29,500 bases of DNA from a virus, in the IMG/VR virus record IMGVR_UViG_3300007351_000045, positions 1 to 29,500 of that record; one strand, 5' to 3'. This document shows, piece by piece, positions 4,025 to 25,500 of the stretch. The first letter of the stretch is position 1. Each line of letters opens with the position of its first letter. Both the position numbers and the translations under genes were made by a program. Below the pieces are notes generated by a model that was not told the origin of the DNA, did no database searches, and saw only the letters and a list, made by a program, of their open reading frames with translations.

Positions 4025-4729
4025 TTATAACATTTTACAGTATTGATCCGTGTGTACTTCTTGTCTTGAGCACTCCCACGTTATCTGCAACACCCTGTCT
4101 ATAATTCCTTCAAATGGCTGATTATAAGTCTGTATAATCGGGTAAGATCCATCGCAGTTTTGAAATAATATATTTCCATCAGGAAAAAGCCCGAGCCTAA
4201 TCGGGTTTGTGTGTGTCTGGCACTTGTTCGAGCAAGACCATTTATCAAGTCTTGCCCGGCCCATAGGATGTATTTCATCCCCGTCTTTCAACCTAATCCC
4301 GTCTGAACACTCATCTTTCAAAATTTTTAGGACTTCCAGGTTCTGATGTCGTTTATGAAACTCAGTTCCGCTAACGACAAGGAACAACTCGTTTCTATTT
4401 AAAAAATTTAAAAACCTGCTAAACATTTCAGGTTCTCTTGACCAGGCCCCATTTGAGATCGTAAACTTTGGAATAGCATCTGGAACCAAGTCTATAAATT
4501 TTTGATACAGCTCAAGATTAATCGACACCTCTCCGCCATAAAAACCACATGAGTTAATCATCCCCCAATCGACTGTCTTTAAGAAAGATTTTGTTTTTTC
4601 AAAATCAAGCTCATCAATCTTTTCCAGACTGCAATCATACATGCAAAATGGGCAAGATAGGTTACATTGCAAGCTCGGTATAAAGCTGAAATCTATGGGT
4701 TGTTTGTCTGGGAATATGCCTGATACCAT
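4025..4729 (-). CDS. Radical SAM enzyme with SPASM-like C-terminal cysteines
   Basis: A 234-residue protein with the radical SAM signature CxxxCxxC (Cys22, Cys26, Cys29) that holds the [4Fe-4S] cluster used to cleave S-adenosylmethionine. The SAM-binding GGE follows at 65-67. The C-terminal part has Cys166, Cys170, Cys192, Cys220 and Cys231 around 'LFPDGNILFQNC', a layout like SPASM/twitch auxiliary clusters of peptide-modifying enzymes. At 234 residues the protein is short for that family. The start is fixed by AAAGGAG. It is preceded by a hairpin and a 20-codon frame (4741-4803). The substrate is unknown: a peptide, tRNA, nucleotide or host protein are all possible. Confidence 0.85.
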   Translation of the reverse strand: MVSGIFPDKQPIDFSFIPSLQCNLSCPFCMYDCSLEKIDELDFEKTKSFLKTVDWGMINSCGFYGGEVSINLELYQKFIDLVPDAIPKFTISNGAWSREPEMFSRFLNFLNRNELFLVVSGTEFHKRHQNLEVLKILKDECSDGIRLKDGDEIHPMGRARLDKWSCSNKCQTHTNPIRLGLFPDGNILFQNCDGSYPIIQTYNQPFEGIIDRVLQITWECSRQEVHTDQYCKML

Positions 4730-4803: not shown

Positions 4804-5061
4804 TTATTCTTTGCCCAGAAAAGATATTCCATCCGTTATGGTTTTAATCATTTTCTTATTTGCAGACAAAAAAGACTCTGTTTTCTTTAACATATCTGCT
4901 ACATCATTGTGAAAATCATATCCTATTGCCAAGTCAAATTCTTGTCCAACAGATAGTTTTGGCATTTTGTTGTAATAAAGATTTCTAAATTTTTCTAACT
5001 CTGAGTTGGTTACAGAGCAAAGATATTCTTCGCCTGGCTTTATGATTCCTATTACTTTCAT
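4804..5061 (-). CDS. Hypothetical phage protein, 85 aa
   Basis: An 85-residue soluble protein: a beta N-terminus (MKVIGIIKPGEEYLCSVTNSELEKF), a central 'LSVGQEFDLAIGYDF', then a helical tail. The pattern 'ExEKFxNLYY...LSVGxExDLxxGYDF' recalls small phage proteins of unknown function. The start lies behind GGAGG, which itself follows a hairpin at 5077-5091. Confidence 0.7.
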   Translation of the reverse strand: MKVIGIIKPGEEYLCSVTNSELEKFRNLYYNKMPKLSVGQEFDLAIGYDFHNDVADMLKKTESFLSANKKMIKTITDGISFLGKE

Positions 5062-5067
5062 CGCCTA

Positions 5068-5092
5068 CCTCCATTCCATGGTTGATCCATGA
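5068..5092 (-). repeat. RBS-proximal hairpin, copy 1
   Basis: On the minus strand CATGG-ATCAA-CCATG forms directly after the stop codon of the gene at 5093 and before AATGGAGG. It is almost identical to the copy at 5338-5360. The only two differences are the two bases of one pair (A-T here, C-G there), so the stem is kept. Confidence 0.7.
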
Positions 5093-5329
5093 CTAAATGC
5101 CTATTAAAGATTTCAAATCCGCCCTAAGTGAATCTCTCCCGGCCATGTAACCAAGATTATAAAACCTATTAATATACTGTACAATTTCTCTGACTTGCTT
5201 ATCTGTCCAAGAGGCTGATGGTTCACTAAAAATTAAATTCCCTTCATCGTCCAATAAAACGACCTTATCTGGATAATATTTGTTATCTCTTTCTATCGAA
5301 CAATCTTTTTCGTCTATAAACTTTGGCAT
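5093..5329 (-). CDS. Hypothetical protein, 78 aa
   Basis: The protein contains 'DKVVLLDDEGNLIFSEPSASWTDKQVREIVQYINRFYNLGYMAGRD', a two-strand plus helix pattern. The tail 'YNLGYxAGRDSLRADL' looks like a common helix in small phage proteins. The start is ambiguous between two adjacent ATGs (5332 and 5329); the second is better spaced from GGAGG. It ends with TAG. Function unknown. Confidence 0.65.
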   Translation of the reverse strand: MPKFIDEKDCSIERDNKYYPDKVVLLDDEGNLIFSEPSASWTDKQVREIVQYINRFYNLGYMAGRDSLRADLKSLIGI

Positions 5330-5337
5330 CATTCACC

Positions 5338-5360
5338 TCCATTCCCTGGTTGATCCAGGG
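5338..5360 (-). repeat. RBS-proximal hairpin, copy 2
   Basis: CCCTGG-ATCAA-CCAGGG on the minus strand begins immediately after the TAA of the zinc-ribbon gene and ends before AATGGAGGT. It pairs over 6 bp and matches copy 1 at 5068-5092 apart from a compensatory exchange. Confidence 0.7.
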
Positions 5361-5531
5361 TTAAAGTTCCTCAATAACGTGATTTTCTTTTCCGCAAAAC
5401 TCACAATCAATATTGTCGGCCATTACCATCCGGTCAACATACCATTCTTGCTCAAGCGTGTATGATGCGAACTGCGTCTCTCCGCAGTGTTCGCAGTCAA
5501 AAATAATCGCCCTGCCTGCTTCTGTTGTCAT
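5361..5531 (-). CDS. Zinc-ribbon protein, 56 aa
   Basis: The 56-residue product has CEHCGE near residue 13 and CEFCGK near residue 43, a simple two-knuckle zinc ribbon. ATG overlaps the upstream stop (ATGA). Between the knuckles lies 'SYTLEQEWYVDRMVMADNID'. It may be a nucleic-acid or protein adaptor. No exact family is recognised. Confidence 0.7.
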   Translation of the reverse strand: MTTEAGRAIIFDCEHCGETQFASYTLEQEWYVDRMVMADNIDCEFCGKENHVIEEL

Positions 5532-7308: not shown

Positions 7309-7631
7309 GCTTCTCCTTTCAAAAACTCATCGATACTGACCATTTTGTCATCCAGATAAACATCTGATCCGCCTTTCTCCATCTTAATGCCATGATACGG
7401 CACCGAGTACCGGGTCAACCACGATATCAAAAACGGGGCATTATTCCATTGTCTGGCTGTCCAAATTATGATGATGTGGCCTTTCCGGTACATTCTGGTT
7501 ACCTTGCAAATCATTGTCATTTCAGGCGGCGGGTCGTCAGAATATTTGCCCTTCTGATCGGCGGTAAGGGTCCCATCAAAGTCAACGCAGAATACTTTCC
7601 GGTTCTGGTTTTCTGTGTAGTGGGTGGTCAT
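7305..7631 (-). CDS. HAD-family phosphatase (small, capless)
   Basis: A 108-residue protein with HAD motif I 'VDFDGTLT' (Asp17 nucleophile, Asp19), motif II 'IIWTAR' (Thr58) and motif IV 'YLDDK' (Asp94/Asp95). The short length leaves no room for a cap, as in phosphatases that act on large substrates such as nucleic-acid ends or on nucleotides. It follows the helicase-methyltransferase gene with an overlap. A role in nucleotide or DNA-end metabolism is inferred. Confidence 0.8.
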   Translation of the reverse strand: MTTHYTENQNRKVFCVDFDGTLTADQKGKYSDDPPPEMTMICKVTRMYRKGHIIIIWTARQWNNAPFLISWLTRYSVPYHGIKMEKGGSDVYLDDKMVSIDEFLKGEA

Positions 7632-10132
7632 GCTGTTGCCCTTTCTTCAAAGTAATCGAATAGCGATGGCATTTTTACGTTTCTTTCTTCCGATTCTAAA
7701 TATTTCACGCTGTCCAGGAAATAACCATGATTCAATTCAGAACCACGGCCCTTTCTGCCAAGTCTCAGGGCGATGATTGGAACAGTCCCAATGCCAGAGA
7801 ACGGATCATAAACAAGATCCCCCTCATTGCTATACCTGGTTATTATTCTGGTCACGGTGTCGATTTGGAGAGGGCACAGGTGGAGCGCCACGTTTCGCCT
7901 GGCCTGTTTACTGTTTAGGGTTATCATCCTATTAATATCTGTCCAAACTTGATAGTCATGGCTTTCCGGGGCAATGCTCATAAAGGTTGACGGCAACTTT
8001 CCAACCTTATCAACATCTTCACCGATCTTAACATGGTGATCGTAATTATAAATCTCCTCCTGTTGGTATTTTTTGAACAGTGATAAAAGCTCTTTTGTCG
8101 GGATGGACTGCACAAATTCCGTGTCAAGAAGAACGTTCCCGGATGACCGCCAAAACGCATGAGCATCGATCTGCCATTTAGCCCTGGTGTAATCATCTTT
8201 TGATTTTGCCACCGGCACATCGGCAAAACCTTTTGTCTTATCGGTTTGGGGTTTCCTGAAAAGCAATATATATTCAGGGCAACCCACGCCCATCTTTGAA
8301 CCGTCTTTGCATTGTTCTGTCCATCCAAGGCGATAAGTCTGATTGTTCTCTCGGACCACATCTGTAACTATGGTTATCATGCCTATTTTTTTGAATCCGT
8401 GTTTCTGGAAATGGGCGCTTGTCTCTTCGTGCATGTTGTCGCAGGTCGGAAACCCCAACCCGGTTACATTGCCGAAAAGGACTCGATCTTTGACATGGAT
8501 GGCCGCTATCCTTCCAGGGCTTAACATCCGGTACAGTTCAGGGGTAAGAAAGTCCATTTGATCCCAAAAATGGGCATTGTCCTTGGTAAATCCGAAGTCG
8601 TTATAACTCGGAGTGTATTCATAATGATTTGCAAACGGTATTGAGGTATGGATCAATCCCACCGAATCTCTTTCAACCAACTTGGCTTCATGGACGCAAT
8701 CGTTATTAGCCACTATGAAGTTTTTGCCGGCAACTTCAATCCGATCAATTCCTATTGATCTTTCAAGCTCCTTCATCATCTCAACATGAGATAGCCCGTA
8801 CTTTTTTATAATATCTGTCATTTTGCCCACCATTTTGTCATTATTCGCCCATTTCTTTTTTAAGACCTGCAAGATACCGAGTTCAGAAGTCGCGAAAATT
8901 AAATGAATTTGACACGCCCTACATTGCAGGAACCTGAATATTCTGTGAATTGCCTGTAAAAAATCGTTTGCTTTAAAATTGATACCAACAAATATCTCAA
9001 CATAACATTGTTGCATGTTAATGCCTGACCCGTACATCATTGGTTTTGAAACAAACACCTGTTTTTCTTTGTTTTTCCATTGCATGATCAGTCTTTCCCG
9101 GTCGTCGATGTTGGTTCCTCCGTAAAGCGAAACATAAGAAACGCCGATTGATTTTAACGCCTTTTCAATGGCCTTCTGTTCAGCGTCAAGATCGCACCAG
9201 ACTATTAATTGATCTTGTCCGTATCCCTTGACAATGCTCAACATTTCAGAAACCCGGTTTTCAATACTGCCCCGTTTTTCGGTAGCAGCATCAGCCAGGG
9301 AAAGCGTAGAATCTCCGAACATGAGCCTTTGGCCGTCTCTCCTGTCGAACCGGTCAACCTCTCCGGCTTTGACCTCGTGATAATGGATATTTAAATCCGG
9401 TAGGTTATATTCTGTATTGTCATATCCAAGATCAGAAGGGTATTGAAGAAACAAAGCCCAAGATGATACCCAAAGCCAAAACTCTTTTTCCATGTGAGGC
9501 ATTAAGGTCAAGTTGTTCGCCTGGGTTGAATCCCGTTTAAAAAATCTCGTTAGGGCCTGACCACTGTCCATGACACCAAGGAAGCCACTGTAATGAATAA
9601 TCTCTTTATACCTGTTTGGGCTCGGGGTTGCCGTAGCAACAAATTTATATTTTACGGCCCCAAAGATAGAAAGGAAGGTCTGAAACGTCAATGACCCATA
9701 AGAACGAAGGACGGAAGCCTCATCCAGGGAAACGGCATTAAACATATTGATATCAAGCCTGCCATCCCGGACGGATTCATAATTCGTGATATATAATCCG
9801 TCTTCCTGGACCTCTTCTGTCCACCGAACGAACCTTATATCCATATTGAGCTTTTCGGCATCGGCCTTGAACTCTTGCCGAACACCCAGGGGAGCTATTA
9901 CAAGTTGCTTGCCTTTTTCCTTTTTGCCTATGATTCTCAAAATCTCAAGCTGGCAGAATGTTTTTCCAAGGCCATATGATGCAAATATGGCCCGGCAGCC
10001 TCCTTTGATAGCCCATTGTACTATATCTTTCTGATGAGGCTTTAGAAGCGGATTTATTTCAGATTGTTTTATGTCAAATCCAAAAAAGGCGGATATTGCT
10101 ATCTTGGATTTGATGAAGTCAAGGTATTCCAT
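7628..10132 (-). CDS. SF2 helicase fused to a DNA methyltransferase
   Basis: An 834-residue, two-module protein. Residues 1-450 are a superfamily 2 helicase: motif I ASYGLGKT (51-58), motif II DEAS (137-140) in place of DEAD/DEAH, motif III TATP (167-170), motif VI QAIHRIFRF (393-401). Residues 465-834 are an adenine/cytosine-N methyltransferase. The catalytic motif is HTSIPF (495-500) in place of (D/N)PP(Y/F), and the SAM-binding DPFSGIG comes last (776-782), which is the beta-class order. Similar helicase and methylase genes are often adjacent or fused in phages. It may modify phage DNA against restriction. The altered catalytic motif makes activity uncertain. ATG at 10132 overlaps the upstream stop (TGATG). 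Confidence 0.9.
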   Translation of the reverse strand: MEYLDFIKSKIAISAFFGFDIKQSEINPLLKPHQKDIVQWAIKGGCRAIFASYGLGKTFCQLEILRIIGKKEKGKQLVIAPLGVRQEFKADAEKLNMDIRFVRWTEEVQEDGLYITNYESVRDGRLDINMFNAVSLDEASVLRSYGSLTFQTFLSIFGAVKYKFVATATPSPNRYKEIIHYSGFLGVMDSGQALTRFFKRDSTQANNLTLMPHMEKEFWLWVSSWALFLQYPSDLGYDNTEYNLPDLNIHYHEVKAGEVDRFDRRDGQRLMFGDSTLSLADAATEKRGSIENRVSEMLSIVKGYGQDQLIVWCDLDAEQKAIEKALKSIGVSYVSLYGGTNIDDRERLIMQWKNKEKQVFVSKPMMYGSGINMQQCYVEIFVGINFKANDFLQAIHRIFRFLQCRACQIHLIFATSELGILQVLKKKWANNDKMVGKMTDIIKKYGLSHVEMMKELERSIGIDRIEVAGKNFIVANNDCVHEAKLVERDSVGLIHTSIPFANHYEYTPSYNDFGFTKDNAHFWDQMDFLTPELYRMLSPGRIAAIHVKDRVLFGNVTGLGFPTCDNMHEETSAHFQKHGFKKIGMITIVTDVVRENNQTYRLGWTEQCKDGSKMGVGCPEYILLFRKPQTDKTKGFADVPVAKSKDDYTRAKWQIDAHAFWRSSGNVLLDTEFVQSIPTKELLSLFKKYQQEEIYNYDHHVKIGEDVDKVGKLPSTFMSIAPESHDYQVWTDINRMITLNSKQARRNVALHLCPLQIDTVTRIITRYSNEGDLVYDPFSGIGTVPIIALRLGRKGRGSELNHGYFLDSVKYLESEERNVKMPSLFDYFEERATA

Positions 10133-10302
10133 CACCGAACCACCCCCGTCGGAATCCCGTTGACCTGACACCATACAACCTCGCCCATTTCCCATCTTGT
10201 CAAATGGATAGCCGGATAAGCCGTTACCTCTCCAGGGTGGTTTGAATCTGTCCTGAAAATTACCGGGCGATCCTGGACCGGTTCTTTATTTAACTGTTCC
10301 AT
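10132..10302 (-). CDS. Hypothetical protein, 56 aa
   Basis: A 56-residue frame (MEQLNKEPVQDRPVIFRTDSNHPGEVTAYPAIHLTRWEMGEVVWCQVNG...) with strong signals at both ends: a TAATG overlap with the upstream gene behind AAGGAGAG, and a TGATG overlap with the helicase gene. It is beta-rich and soluble. Function unknown. Confidence 0.7.
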   Translation of the reverse strand: MEQLNKEPVQDRPVIFRTDSNHPGEVTAYPAIHLTRWEMGEVVWCQVNGIPTGVVR

Positions 10303-17125: not shown

Positions 17126-17251
17126 ATGACAAATCCAATAGACATTTTTGAAGGTCCTGCGAGTGGGGTTATCTTTTTCAAAACATCGAAAACTCTCTTC
17201 CCGGTTCAACATTCGCAGGGCCTTCAAAGGTGTTTAGGCGGTAAATCATAA
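17126..17251 (+). CDS. 41-aa protein or RNA-structure-bearing leader
   Basis: A 41-codon frame (MTNPIDIFEGPASGVIFFKTSK... RCLGGKS) behind AGGAGAG, ending in a TAATG overlap with the initiator gene. Most of the frame lies in a long perfect-pairing hairpin (17147-17228), so the sequence may be constrained as RNA or DNA structure. The peptide has no known relatives I recognise. Coding and structure may coexist. Confidence 0.5.
   Translation: MTNPIDIFEGPASGVIFFKTSKTLFPVQHSQGLQRCLGGKS
17147..17228 (+). repeat. Long inverted repeat (about 19-bp stem) upstream of the initiator
   Basis: TTTGAAGGTCCTGCGAGTG (17147-17165) pairs along its whole length with CATTCGCAGGGCCTTCAAA (17210-17228), with only two G-T pairs. 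The 44-base loop itself can fold (GGG/CCC and TTTTC/GAAAA). No T-run follows, so it is not a terminator. Confidence 0.75.
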
Positions 17252-17961
17252 TGCACAGGGGATTTGTTAAGTTATGGCGTAAAAGTCAAGACAGCAGGGT
17301 TTTTAATAATGCAGATCTTTGGAAGGTTTGGACATGGTGTTTAATGAGGGCAAACCATGAAGAAAATTGGGTTACAATAAAAACTGGAAAGGGTGACATT
17401 GATGTTTTGATTGGTCCAGGTCAGTTCGTTTTTGGTAGAGATTCTGCCGCAAAAGAATTAAGAATGAAAACGTCATCTGTAAGAAATAGAATTGAAAAAT
17501 TAAAAAACATGAAAAATATTGATATTAAATCGGACAGCCAATATTCAATAATTTCAATAATAAATTGGGATAGTTACCAGCCAAAAAATGATGAATGTGG
17601 ACAGGCAAAAGGACAGCCAAAGGACAGCCAAAGGACAGCCAAAGGACAGCCAAAGGACACAGAGAAGAATGATAAGAATATATATTCATCAAATTTTTTG
17701 GAATTTTGGGGATGGTATCCAAGAAGGGTAGGCAAGGGTGCGGCATGGAAAGCATATTGCAATATTAAAAAACCAACTCCTATGCTGTCACAAATCAGGA
17801 AAGCTATAGAGTCTCAAAAAAAATCAAAAGAGTGGCAAGACCCACAATTCATACCACACCCTTCAACATGGTTAAACCAAAGAAGATGGGAAGATGAACC
17901 AGACCAACCAGTTAACCAAGAAAAAACCCTTGCCTTCACAGTATCACCAGAGGACCTATGA
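17251..17961 (+). CDS. Phage replication initiator (DnaD/O-like)
   Basis: A 236-residue protein. The N-terminus 'RGFVKLWRKSQDSRVFNNADLWKVWTWCLMRANH' with 'GQFVFGRDSAAKELRMKTSSVRNRIEKLKNM' looks like the winged-helix domain of phage replisome organisers. A linker at 116-136 is encoded by 11-bp DNA repeats. The C-terminus has 'FLEFWGWYPRRVGKGAAWKAYCN' and 'FIPHPSTWLNQRRWEDEP', typical of phage replication proteins. It would bind the iterons within its own gene, as lambda O does, and recruit the primase-helicase that follows with an ATGA overlap. Confidence 0.8.
   Translation: MHRGFVKLWRKSQDSRVFNNADLWKVWTWCLMRANHEENWVTIKTGKGDIDVLIGPGQFVFGRDSAAKELRMKTSSVRNRIEKLKNMKNIDIKSDSQYSIISIINWDSYQPKNDECGQAKGQPKDSQRTAKGQPKDTEKNDKNIYSSNFLEFWGWYPRRVGKGAAWKAYCNIKKPTPMLSQIRKAIESQKKSKEWQDPQFIPHPSTWLNQRRWEDEPDQPVNQEKTLAFTVSPEDL
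17597..17662. repeat. 11-bp iterons inside the initiator gene (putative origin)
   Basis: Four perfect tandem copies of AAAGGACAGCC at 17608-17618, 17619-17629, 17630-17640 and 17641-17651, with degraded copies on both sides (17597-17607, 17652-17662). The 11-bp period keeps each site on one face of the helix. An AT-rich stretch (17663-17720) follows and could melt. This mirrors the lambda origin inside gene O. Confidence 0.75.
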
Positions 17962-21735: not shown

Positions 21736-21763
21736 TGTGGTTGGTATGTTAGTATCAACCACA
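21736..21763 (+). promoter_or_regulatory. Intergenic hairpin upstream of the MazG-like gene
   Basis: TGTGGTTGGTA pairs with TATCAACCACA over 11 bp (one G-T) around a TGTTAG loop. It lies 30-60 bases before the chosen start. No T-run follows. Confidence 0.6.
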
Positions 21764-21795
21764 CAATGAAAACAATTAAAACAGCAAGGAATGAA

Positions 21796-22098
21796 ATGTC
21801 AGAACTCGAAAATAATATAATTAAAGTTGCAAAAGGCTGGAATCTATATCCAGAAACCACAATTCAGGACCAGCTCGAAAAATTACAGGAAGAAATTGAA
21901 GAATTTGAGGAAGCTCATTTTGATTTACATAACGCAGCCGATGAGCAAATGGAACTCGGTGACGTATATGTGGTTCTGGTAAACATTGCCGCAAAGCTCG
22001 GTTACAGCCTGGAAAGATGCGGTCACATGGCCTATGAAAAAATCAAGACAAGGACCGGCAAAATGATAAACGGCCAGTTCGTAAGGGATGACAAATGA
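21796..22098 (+). CDS. MazG-like nucleotide pyrophosphohydrolase
   Basis: A 100-residue protein with 'LQEEIEEFEEAH' (Glu32, Glu33, Glu36) and 'EQMELGDVYVVLVNIAAKLG' (Glu53, Asp56). The EExxE...ExxD layout is the magnesium site of MazG/all-alpha NTP pyrophosphatases, which remove nucleotides such as dUTP-like or ppGpp-related substrates. Phages use them to adjust nucleotide pools. The ATG at 21796 follows AAGGA; a longer start would run through the hairpin. Confidence 0.8.
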   Translation: MSELENNIIKVAKGWNLYPETTIQDQLEKLQEEIEEFEEAHFDLHNAADEQMELGDVYVVLVNIAAKLGYSLERCGHMAYEKIKTRTGKMINGQFVRDDK

Positions 22099-22483: not shown

Positions 22484-22700
22484 AGGCGGCATCCAGGCGG
22501 TTAAGATAATATCTTTTTTCGGCAGCGTCCGTTTCTTCCTTGGAAATTTCAGGCAGTTTCCTGACCGTTATTCTGGCCGTGTAGTGAGTAGGCTCAACAT
22601 CAATGATAAAATATTCATTGCAATGCCGGCAGCTCTCAATTTGAGTGTCTGCCGGTTCAAAATTGATCAAGGCTTTGCAGTGTGGGCAGATGGTTTTCAT
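22482..22700 (-). CDS. Zinc-ribbon protein, 72 aa
   Basis: CPHC and CRHCNEYF near the N-terminus form a zinc ribbon, followed by 'PTHYTARITVRKLPEISKEETDAAEKRYYLNRLDAA'. The start overlaps the stop of the radical SAM gene. Function unknown. Confidence 0.7.
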   Translation of the reverse strand: MKTICPHCKALINFEPADTQIESCRHCNEYFIIDVEPTHYTARITVRKLPEISKEETDAAEKRYYLNRLDAA

Positions 22701-23656
22701 TTTTGATACCTATCCACAGTATTGTTATGGTCTATGCAAACATCAAGGCAGTTTTTTAAACATATCTGGTCTTTTTTTGTATCAGCTTTGTCAAACCATT
22801 CTTTTCTTTCTGCCCTTATTTTTTGAATACTTTTCCCTGAAACAGATCCTATCGGCTGGCCCTGTTCTCTCATGTAAATAACGCAAGGAAAGTGATAATC
22901 CGATAATATAACCATATCGTCTTTTACAAGATGACATTTCCCGCAGTCACTATTTTTCAATCCCCTGACATGATTTCCTTTTTTTATGTTATTGATTCGG
23001 TATCTCAGTATCTTGAGGTCTGTATCGACATCAATATCAAGGCGGTGGTTTGATTGAGCAGATGGTATTATCCTGATATCGGAAACGCCTAATCCGGTAG
23101 CGTGTGACACTATTTCTAAAAGCTCTTTGTTGTTTCTGTTGTCAAGGACAATCCCGACGGTTACATATGTTTTTTTGCTTAAATATGTTATAACATCGCA
23201 GATGTGCTTGAATTTACCATTTACACCGGCCATCTGGTCGGCAGTAGAAGAACAACAAGCGTCAAGGGAAATAGAAAAATCGTTCACTCCTGAATAAAAC
23301 AGTTTTTCATACGTTTTGATAGAGGCTGATCCGTTGGTAGACAATGCTATCCTGTTTATGCTTGTTTTGTTTTTAGTGAACCTAACAAGCTCTTCAAGGC
23401 GAGGCCAAAGGGTAGGCTCTCCGCCTGAAAATCTTATGTTTTCAAGGCCTCCAGAATCCCACATATCCACCACGTTCTTAGCCTGTTCATAGGGCATGTC
23501 CCCTTTGAGTTCATCTTTTATGCCCCGGCAGTATTGGCATTTGAAATTGCACCTATGGGTTAAGATAAGCTCGCATCTCTTTAATGGTGATTCCCATGAC
23601 ACTTCTTGAGCCCTTTTATCTGATAGTGTATAAAAACCGATGTCTTCCAATTTCAT
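22697..23656 (-). CDS. Second radical SAM enzyme, with SPASM-like end
   Basis: A 319-residue protein with CxxxCxxC (Cys36, Cys40, Cys43), 'SGGEP' (77-81), 'STNGS' (about 106-110) and 'ISLDA' (129-133): a complete radical SAM core. The C-terminus has Cys238, Cys241, Cys258 then Cys299, Cys303, Cys307, as expected for one or two auxiliary Fe-S clusters (SPASM/twitch). Such enzymes often modify peptides, tRNA or cofactors. It is longer than, and not a copy of, the enzyme at 4025-4729. The ATG overlaps the small membrane protein gene upstream. Confidence 0.9.
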   Translation of the reverse strand: MKLEDIGFYTLSDKRAQEVSWESPLKRCELILTHRCNFKCQYCRGIKDELKGDMPYEQAKNVVDMWDSGGLENIRFSGGEPTLWPRLEELVRFTKNKTSINRIALSTNGSASIKTYEKLFYSGVNDFSISLDACCSSTADQMAGVNGKFKHICDVITYLSKKTYVTVGIVLDNRNNKELLEIVSHATGLGVSDIRIIPSAQSNHRLDIDVDTDLKILRYRINNIKKGNHVRGLKNSDCGKCHLVKDDMVILSDYHFPCVIYMREQGQPIGSVSGKSIQKIRAERKEWFDKADTKKDQICLKNCLDVCIDHNNTVDRYQK

Positions 23657-24217: not shown

Positions 24218-24250
24218 TTTTACCTCCATTTAAGTTTAACCGCTCAAGTC

Positions 24251-24272
24251 TGCCCCCGATTTTTCGGGAGCA
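24251..24272 (-). promoter_or_regulatory. Leader hairpin with AAAA loop
   Basis: On the minus strand TGCTCCCGA-AAAA-TCGGGGGCA forms a 9-bp stem with one T-G pair. It lies between the stop at 24289 and the start at 24217. It is another member of the intergenic hairpin set. Confidence 0.55.
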
Positions 24273-24288
24273 GGTTCAGGGGTTAAGC

Positions 24289-24700: not shown

Positions 24701-24733
24701 CTCCTTATTGTGCCCTTCCGGGGCGGTTGGTTT
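24701..24733 (-). repeat. GNRA-type leader hairpin, copy A
   Basis: On the minus strand CCGCCCC-GGAA-GGGCAC precedes ACAATAAGGAG and the start at 24693. It begins about 8 bases after the previous stop. The same layout and sequence recur at 25003-25031. Confidence 0.6.
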
Positions 24734-25002: not shown

Positions 25003-25031
25003 TCCTTATTGTGCCCCTTTCGGGGCGGTTG
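25003..25031 (-). repeat. GNRA-type leader hairpin, copy B
   Basis: Minus strand GCCCC-GAAA-GGGGC (25026-25013), followed by ACAATAAGGAGAAGATCATG. The GAAA tetraloop is a very stable RNA loop. It is paralogous to the leader at 24701-24733. Confidence 0.65.
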
Positions 25032-25432: not shown

Positions 25433-25500
25433 GATTTTCTCCTTTCTTTGCCGGTCTCCCGGCGGTGAGTTGATTGAGAGAACTATTTTCTCTCTTGCCT
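25433..25500 (-). promoter_or_regulatory. Leader hairpins before the 88-aa gene
   Basis: GCCGG-GAGA-CCGGC (25450-25463, GNRA loop) and GAGAGAA/TTCTCTC (near 25477-25496) lie in the 5' leader on the minus strand, immediately upstream of AAAGGAG. Confidence 0.55.

Follow-up and report, generated by a model that had tools for sequence, protein, structure and literature searches.

The window analyzed in this study was a stretch of viral DNA of 29,500 nucleotides (positions 1 to 29,500 of IMG/VR record IMGVR_UViG_3300007351_000045). On its minus strand lies an operon whose genes between 10529 and 5361 overlap one another by 1–4 nt, the arrangement expected for translational coupling. Two small genes then come with gaps, and each gap is occupied by a hairpin (Table 1). 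An earlier note on this DNA had described a duplicated hairpin, each copy lying between a stop codon and GGAGG, and this description was borne out on the minus strand. Read 5' to 3', copy 1 is TTTAG-TCATGG-ATCAA-CCATGG-AAT-GGAGG-TAGGCG-ATG and copy 2 is TTTAA-CCCTGG-ATCAA-CCAGGG-AAT-GGAGG-TGAATG-ATG. In both copies, 6 nt separate GGAGG from ATG and the stop-to-start gap is 31 nt, so that overlap of the kind seen among the preceding genes was found at neither copy.

The gene downstream of copy 1 showed no match in Pfam or PHROG, and the predicted structure of its 85-aa product was uninformative (mean pLDDT 49.5). The start of the 78-aa gene downstream of copy 2 was best set at 5329, because the GGAG-to-ATG spacing is then equal in all three copies of the element (the third is described below); no relative of this gene was found in the phages, viral contigs and genomes searched. 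The search for relatives of both downstream genes in these sets yielded a single ortholog, that of the 85-aa gene, in the viral contig L003.

Table 1. Hairpins, translation signals and genes in the window and in related viral contigs
Feature	Position	Strand	Remark
Hairpin copy 1, TCATGG-ATCAA-CCATGG	5076..5092	-	5 Watson-Crick pairs + U.G
Hairpin copy 2, CCCTGG-ATCAA-CCAGGG	5344..5360	-	6 pairs
Shine-Dalgarno GGAGG, copy 1	5068..5072	-	3 nt past stem
Shine-Dalgarno GGAGG, copy 2	5336..5340	-	3 nt past stem
Stop codon TAG, gene upstream of copy 1	5093..5095	-	Adjoins copy 1 stem
Stop codon TAA, upstream 56-aa gene (5361-5531)	5361..5363	-	Adjoins copy 2 stem
Gene downstream of copy 1, 85 aa, MKVIGII...	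4804..5061	-	L003 ortholog 89% identical
Gene downstream of copy 2, 78 aa, MPKFIDE...	5093..5329	-	Direct repeats on both sides
Family B copy B1, GCCGG-GAGA-CCGGC	25450..25463	-	Before AAGGAG..ATG
Family B copy B2, GCCCC-GAAA-GGGGC	25013..25026	-	Before AAGGAG..ATG; two pairs swapped vs B1
Family B copy B3, GCCC-CGGAA-GGGC	24712..24724	-	Before AAGGAG..ATG; 4-bp stem
Gap hairpin CTGCTCCCGA-AAAA-TCGGGGGCAG	24250..24273	-	Before gene 24217-24032
Helicase-methylase gap stem GCCCGGC/GCCGGGC	L019, L020		
Helicase-methylase gap stem AGCCCGGA/TCCGGGCT	L023, L025		
Helicase-methylase gap stem AGCCCCAG/CTGGGGCT	L022, L024, L026		

Within the 24-nt segments that the earlier note had compared (C[A/C]TGGATCAACCA[T/G]GGAATGGAGG), the copies differ at exactly two positions, and these indeed pair with each other in the stem, as A-U in copy 1 and as C-G in copy 2. 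A third difference lies two bases further out, just beyond those segments, at the outermost base of the stem (U.G in copy 1, C-G in copy 2). This base thus pairs in both copies, and the stem is 6 bp long. Together the copies form a 31-nt direct repeat with 87% identity. They are the only two in the record, every other site in the window being more than 8 mismatches away. Matches to the core by itself (TGGATCAACCA, up to 2 mismatches) were not in excess in the window (17, with 12.1 expected). When folding was compared with that of shuffled sequences, copy 2 folded better (z -2.9) and copy 1 no better (z -0.3).

Several other features of the window were recorded. The product of gene 7628-10195 (minus strand) is a DNA helicase fused to an N6/N4 DNA methylase, and it has relatives at about 57% identity in phages of Mycobacterium and Arthrobacter; in contrast, the terminase was closest to those of Pseudomonas and enterobacterial phages. 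Two further minus-strand genes are radical SAM-like: 4025-4729 matched PHROG 1802 and, weakly and below the cut-off, Pfam Radical_SAM, and 22697-23656 resembles a radical SAM enzyme by its cysteine motif, as judged by eye. Inside the coding region of gene 17251-17961, 11-bp repeats (GCCAAAGGACA) are arranged head to tail at 17605-17659; since the length of the unit is not divisible by three, the reading frame changes from copy to copy. On the plus strand, the long, near-perfect hairpin TGTGGTTGGTATGTTAGTATCAACCACA (approximately 21738-21770) precedes the gene at 21796 or falls within its beginning, and contains ATCAACCA, as do hairpin copies 1 and 2.

A third copy in a related virus

Viral contig IMGVR_UViG_3300025154_000416 (L003) carries the 85-aa gene's ortholog (89% identity), whose leader reads TTTAA-TCCTGG-GTCAA-CCAGGG-GAT-GGAGA-TGAACG-ATG. 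Here the stem is intact, one loop base is changed (GTCAA instead of ATCAA), and the upstream gene is unrelated to that of the window. The earlier note had proposed looking in phage relatives for copies near start sites, and the L003 copy keeps both the stem and the place before a start codon. The three copies thus retain the 6-bp stem, its position and the spacing despite unrelated upstream genes. An RNA model built from these three copies recovered only the same copies from 270 kb (E approximately 1e-12 to 1e-14; next-best match, E = 3.3), and chance does not account for the repeat in the window. DNA patterns, both strict and loose, run on viral and genome contigs led to no further copy than that of L003, the other matches having no stem or sitting outside gene starts. 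The RNA model run on relatives gave nothing convincing beyond the known copies, and a blastn search of phages and plasmids with the 42-mer yielded matches at chance level only.

A second contig, L013, carries the upstream gene of L003 (85% identity) with neither the hairpin nor the 85-aa MKVIG gene behind it, indicating that the hairpin belongs with the downstream gene in the sequences compared. The upstream protein ends in KLSLR in L013 and in KL in L003, the last three codons having been lost at the junction, and DNA homology between the window and L003 breaks off exactly at the upstream stop codon and element (window 5097). Such junctions are what would be expected if the 31-bp repeats acted at the DNA level, as recombination junctions or sites of a DNA-binding protein for gene cassettes, with the hairpin incidental; the two repeats, spaced 268 bp apart, also flank exactly one gene, that for the 78-aa protein. 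This reading, which we regard as improbable, leaves the compensatory pair unexplained unless the dyad itself is bound, and it does not explain why the element always sits between stop codon and Shine-Dalgarno, or why stems are conserved across the unrelated sequences described in the next section.

Because L003 has C-G like copy 2, the swap probably represents one event in the lineage of copy 1. The evidence from the element itself amounts to three sequences and one compensatory event. The probability of a compensatory pair by chance was 0.027 for three random substitutions and 0.017 if all pairs also survive. The earlier note had taken the paired change as strong evidence that the stem is selected. 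As a single event it is supportive and not strong by itself; the stem is nevertheless probably under selection, as suggested by its intact state in L003 and by the class of gap hairpins below, in which pairing is kept while sequences change.

Hairpins in other gene gaps

Hairpins of different sequence occupy other gaps of the window, including three that we termed family B (Table 1). In two more viral contigs (L068 and L069), GCCGC/GCGGC stems were found before a start codon in a context like that of family B. Every pair was kept and two were swapped in the family B comparison, a value reached by 33 of 500 shuffles in a small test of 4 sequences whose outer pairs were already fixed by the search pattern.

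To quantify these structures, gaps of 24–90 nt were delimited with a simple gene caller (home-made gene calls for unannotated contigs). A GC-rich hairpin was present in 19 of 49 gaps in the window and its helicase-methylase relatives, where 2.1 were expected. After removal of duplicates, the count was 17 of 47, compared with 2.0 (mononucleotide) or 3.4 (dinucleotide) expected and with 4 of 47 coding stretches of the same length. Unrelated viral contigs showed a hairpin in 6 of 30 gaps (1.1–1.7 expected; 3 in coding stretches). Some gaps of the window and its relatives have no hairpin, and copy 1 itself fell just under the threshold of this count.

Several relatives share an orthologous gap before the helicase-methylase gene, yet its stems differ (Table 1) and its loops are unrelated. 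These leaders were compared by eye (MAFFT misaligned them). The loop of L022 is CTTTAACA, and that of L024 and L026 is its reverse complement, TGTTAAAG, which corresponds to a hairpin inverted in place. These gaps show that the stem was kept and its sequence was not.

The blastn lead from copy B2 was to the cultured Streptomyces phage Moab (L072, MT114162.1 90000-129370). In this 39-kb stretch, analyzed with the deposited gene calls, 36 of 44 gaps contained a hairpin (2.5 expected; 7 in the coding control). The corresponding values were 13 of 18 gaps (0.9 expected) in phage Comrade (L073) and 14 of 17 (0.7 expected) in phage Faust (L074), giving 63 of 79 gaps against 4.1 expected in the stretches tested. 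The stems usually run straight into AAGCTT, followed by the Shine-Dalgarno sequence (27 of the 36 AAGCTT sites in Moab were directly 3' of a stem), and the loops are often GNRA or TTCG. Stem sequences differ completely between gaps and between phages, and were changed in the corresponding gaps of Comrade and Faust. We found no description of these hairpins in the open-access literature searched.

The Streptomyces gap hairpins resemble the window elements in their order (stop codon, GC-rich hairpin, Shine-Dalgarno, start codon), in similar gap lengths and in the pairing that is kept. They are unlike them in that most gaps in their region have one and that the stem is usually followed by AAGCTT and a longer spacer; AAGCTT is absent from the window elements. 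We treat the class as a putative one united by position and structure, and claim no common descent for the window and Streptomyces elements. The strongest support for the class comes from these Streptomyces phages, which are unrelated to the window.

These comparisons also bear on the loop. The earlier note had suggested that the unchanged loop is recognized, and a translational operator would be the corresponding mechanism: a phage or host RNA-binding protein would bind the RTCAA-loop hairpin and repress or activate both genes, in the manner of the MS2 coat protein. Consistent with this, near-identical hairpins stand right before the ribosome site of two genes, and four of the five loop bases are alike in all three copies. 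However, the first loop base is changed in L003, and the four shared bases are no more than expected, since 28 of 42 columns are invariant across the whole 42-nt element. Loops of comparable gap hairpins are unrelated (GAGA, GAAA, TTGT, CAGGT and TTCG), no RNA-binding protein was identified, and the record holds two copies only. Recognition of the loop is thus not supported by the sequences at hand, and we consider an operator unlikely.

Proposed role of the hairpins

We propose, with moderate confidence, that both copies are gene-boundary hairpins of a polycistronic phage mRNA, part of a portable leader in which the stem is selected and acts as a cis barrier between cistrons. A short stable stem would occupy the space between one stop codon and the next Shine-Dalgarno sequence, and the leader unit (hairpin, GGAGG, spacer and ATG) would move together with the downstream gene cassette. 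Selection would act on the presence of a stem at that place, and not on stem sequence or loop. We infer that the hairpin may be a structural barrier that works in cis on its mRNA; the likelier role would be to protect the upstream cistron's end from nucleases or to define that end, and the second, ranked below it, to insulate downstream initiation from ribosomes finishing the upstream gene. The window element is real, and is probably an ordinary gene-boundary structure and not a special recognition signal.

The ribosome site could instead be masked. In such a scheme, CUUUA over the upstream stop would pair, around the hairpin, with UGGAG of the Shine-Dalgarno region, and ribosomes finishing the upstream gene would open the downstream site. 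All three copies could form this weak outer helix (four of its five pairs always, all five in two copies), a helix of this kind appears in the minimum-energy fold of the 42-mers, and the unpaired probability of the Shine-Dalgarno sequence is only 0.12–0.60. However, the outer helix has two U.G pairs among its five and no pair that covaries, both of its strands are constrained anyway, by the stop codon and by the Shine-Dalgarno sequence, and longer contexts often gave another fold, the outer helix occurring mainly in short ones. In 71 gap hairpins, mean Shine-Dalgarno accessibility was unchanged when the hairpin pairs were forbidden (0.47 with and 0.48 without; P = 0.16), so systematic masking or unmasking is not supported. 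Furthermore, termination-reinitiation coupling is nearly abolished by gaps of approximately 20 nt (PMC10666635); the gap here is 31 nt, and these genes therefore probably initiate on their own. We consider masking doubtful for these copies.

A recent local duplication of a leader with a functionless chance hairpin and a coincidental swap would suit the single compensatory event (P approximately 0.02–0.03), the folding of copy 1 and a 31-bp duplication that is unremarkable, but it is very improbable given a third copy with intact stem in another phage and the enrichment of hairpins in such gaps.

For the boundary hairpin, a wider reading can be offered tentatively: where genes do not overlap, many phages may place a stem at the boundary, free in sequence and fixed in position between stop codon and ribosome site, a general and largely undescribed device that would keep cassettes portable, with the window elements as one small family. 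If it is general, such a device could explain the independent expression of densely packed and often exchanged small genes, and would mark gene cassettes and start sites independently of sequence. By themselves, the window copies illustrate this only modestly; with the gaps of the Streptomyces phages, the idea becomes directly testable in cultured phages.

Comparison with known elements

No T run follows the hairpins, indicating that they are not ordinary terminators, and no terminator-like site was found between 4600 and 6100 of the window; an intrinsic terminator was therefore rejected. In Rfam, no family matched above the gathering threshold in the whole window, and matches near the element were at chance level.

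In T4-type phages (I-TevI, soc and e; mobE of phage Aeh1), a hairpin sequesters the ribosome site, and for the homing endonucleases a late promoter yields transcripts without the sequestering structure (PMC2988022). The window element shares with these an RNA hairpin at a phage gene start; unlike in these cases, its Shine-Dalgarno sequence lies outside the main stem.

Cluster K mycobacteriophages carry Start-Associated Sequences, 13-bp GGGATAGGAGCCC in 11–19 copies per genome, together with 17-bp imperfect inverted repeats whose arm changes, according to the authors, do not generally support RNA pairing (PMC3203893). The Start-Associated and Extended Start-Associated Sequences resemble the window element in being repeats at the ribosome-site position of several genes, partly after inverted repeats. 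The window element is not one of them: it reads AATGGAGGTGAAYG, its 6-bp arms enclose a loop of constant length, 5 nt (a variable spacer in cluster K), and its arm changes, unlike those of cluster K, support pairing.

The nearest description that we found is that of seg43(25) of Aeromonas phage 25, in which a very stable hairpin lies just upstream of an unsequestered ribosome site, with an effect that was left undetermined (PMC2988022). As there, the base of the window hairpin stands directly before the ribosome site and does not sequester it: 3 nt separate the stem from the Shine-Dalgarno sequence (GGAGG in the window) in all three copies, and the Shine-Dalgarno sequence is outside the main stem, with the qualification that a weak outer helix may touch the ribosome site in the window copies. 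The two differ in that one very stable hairpin precedes seg43(25), which encodes a homing endonuclease, whereas the window has two short 6-bp hairpins before small genes, as paralogous copies in one operon.
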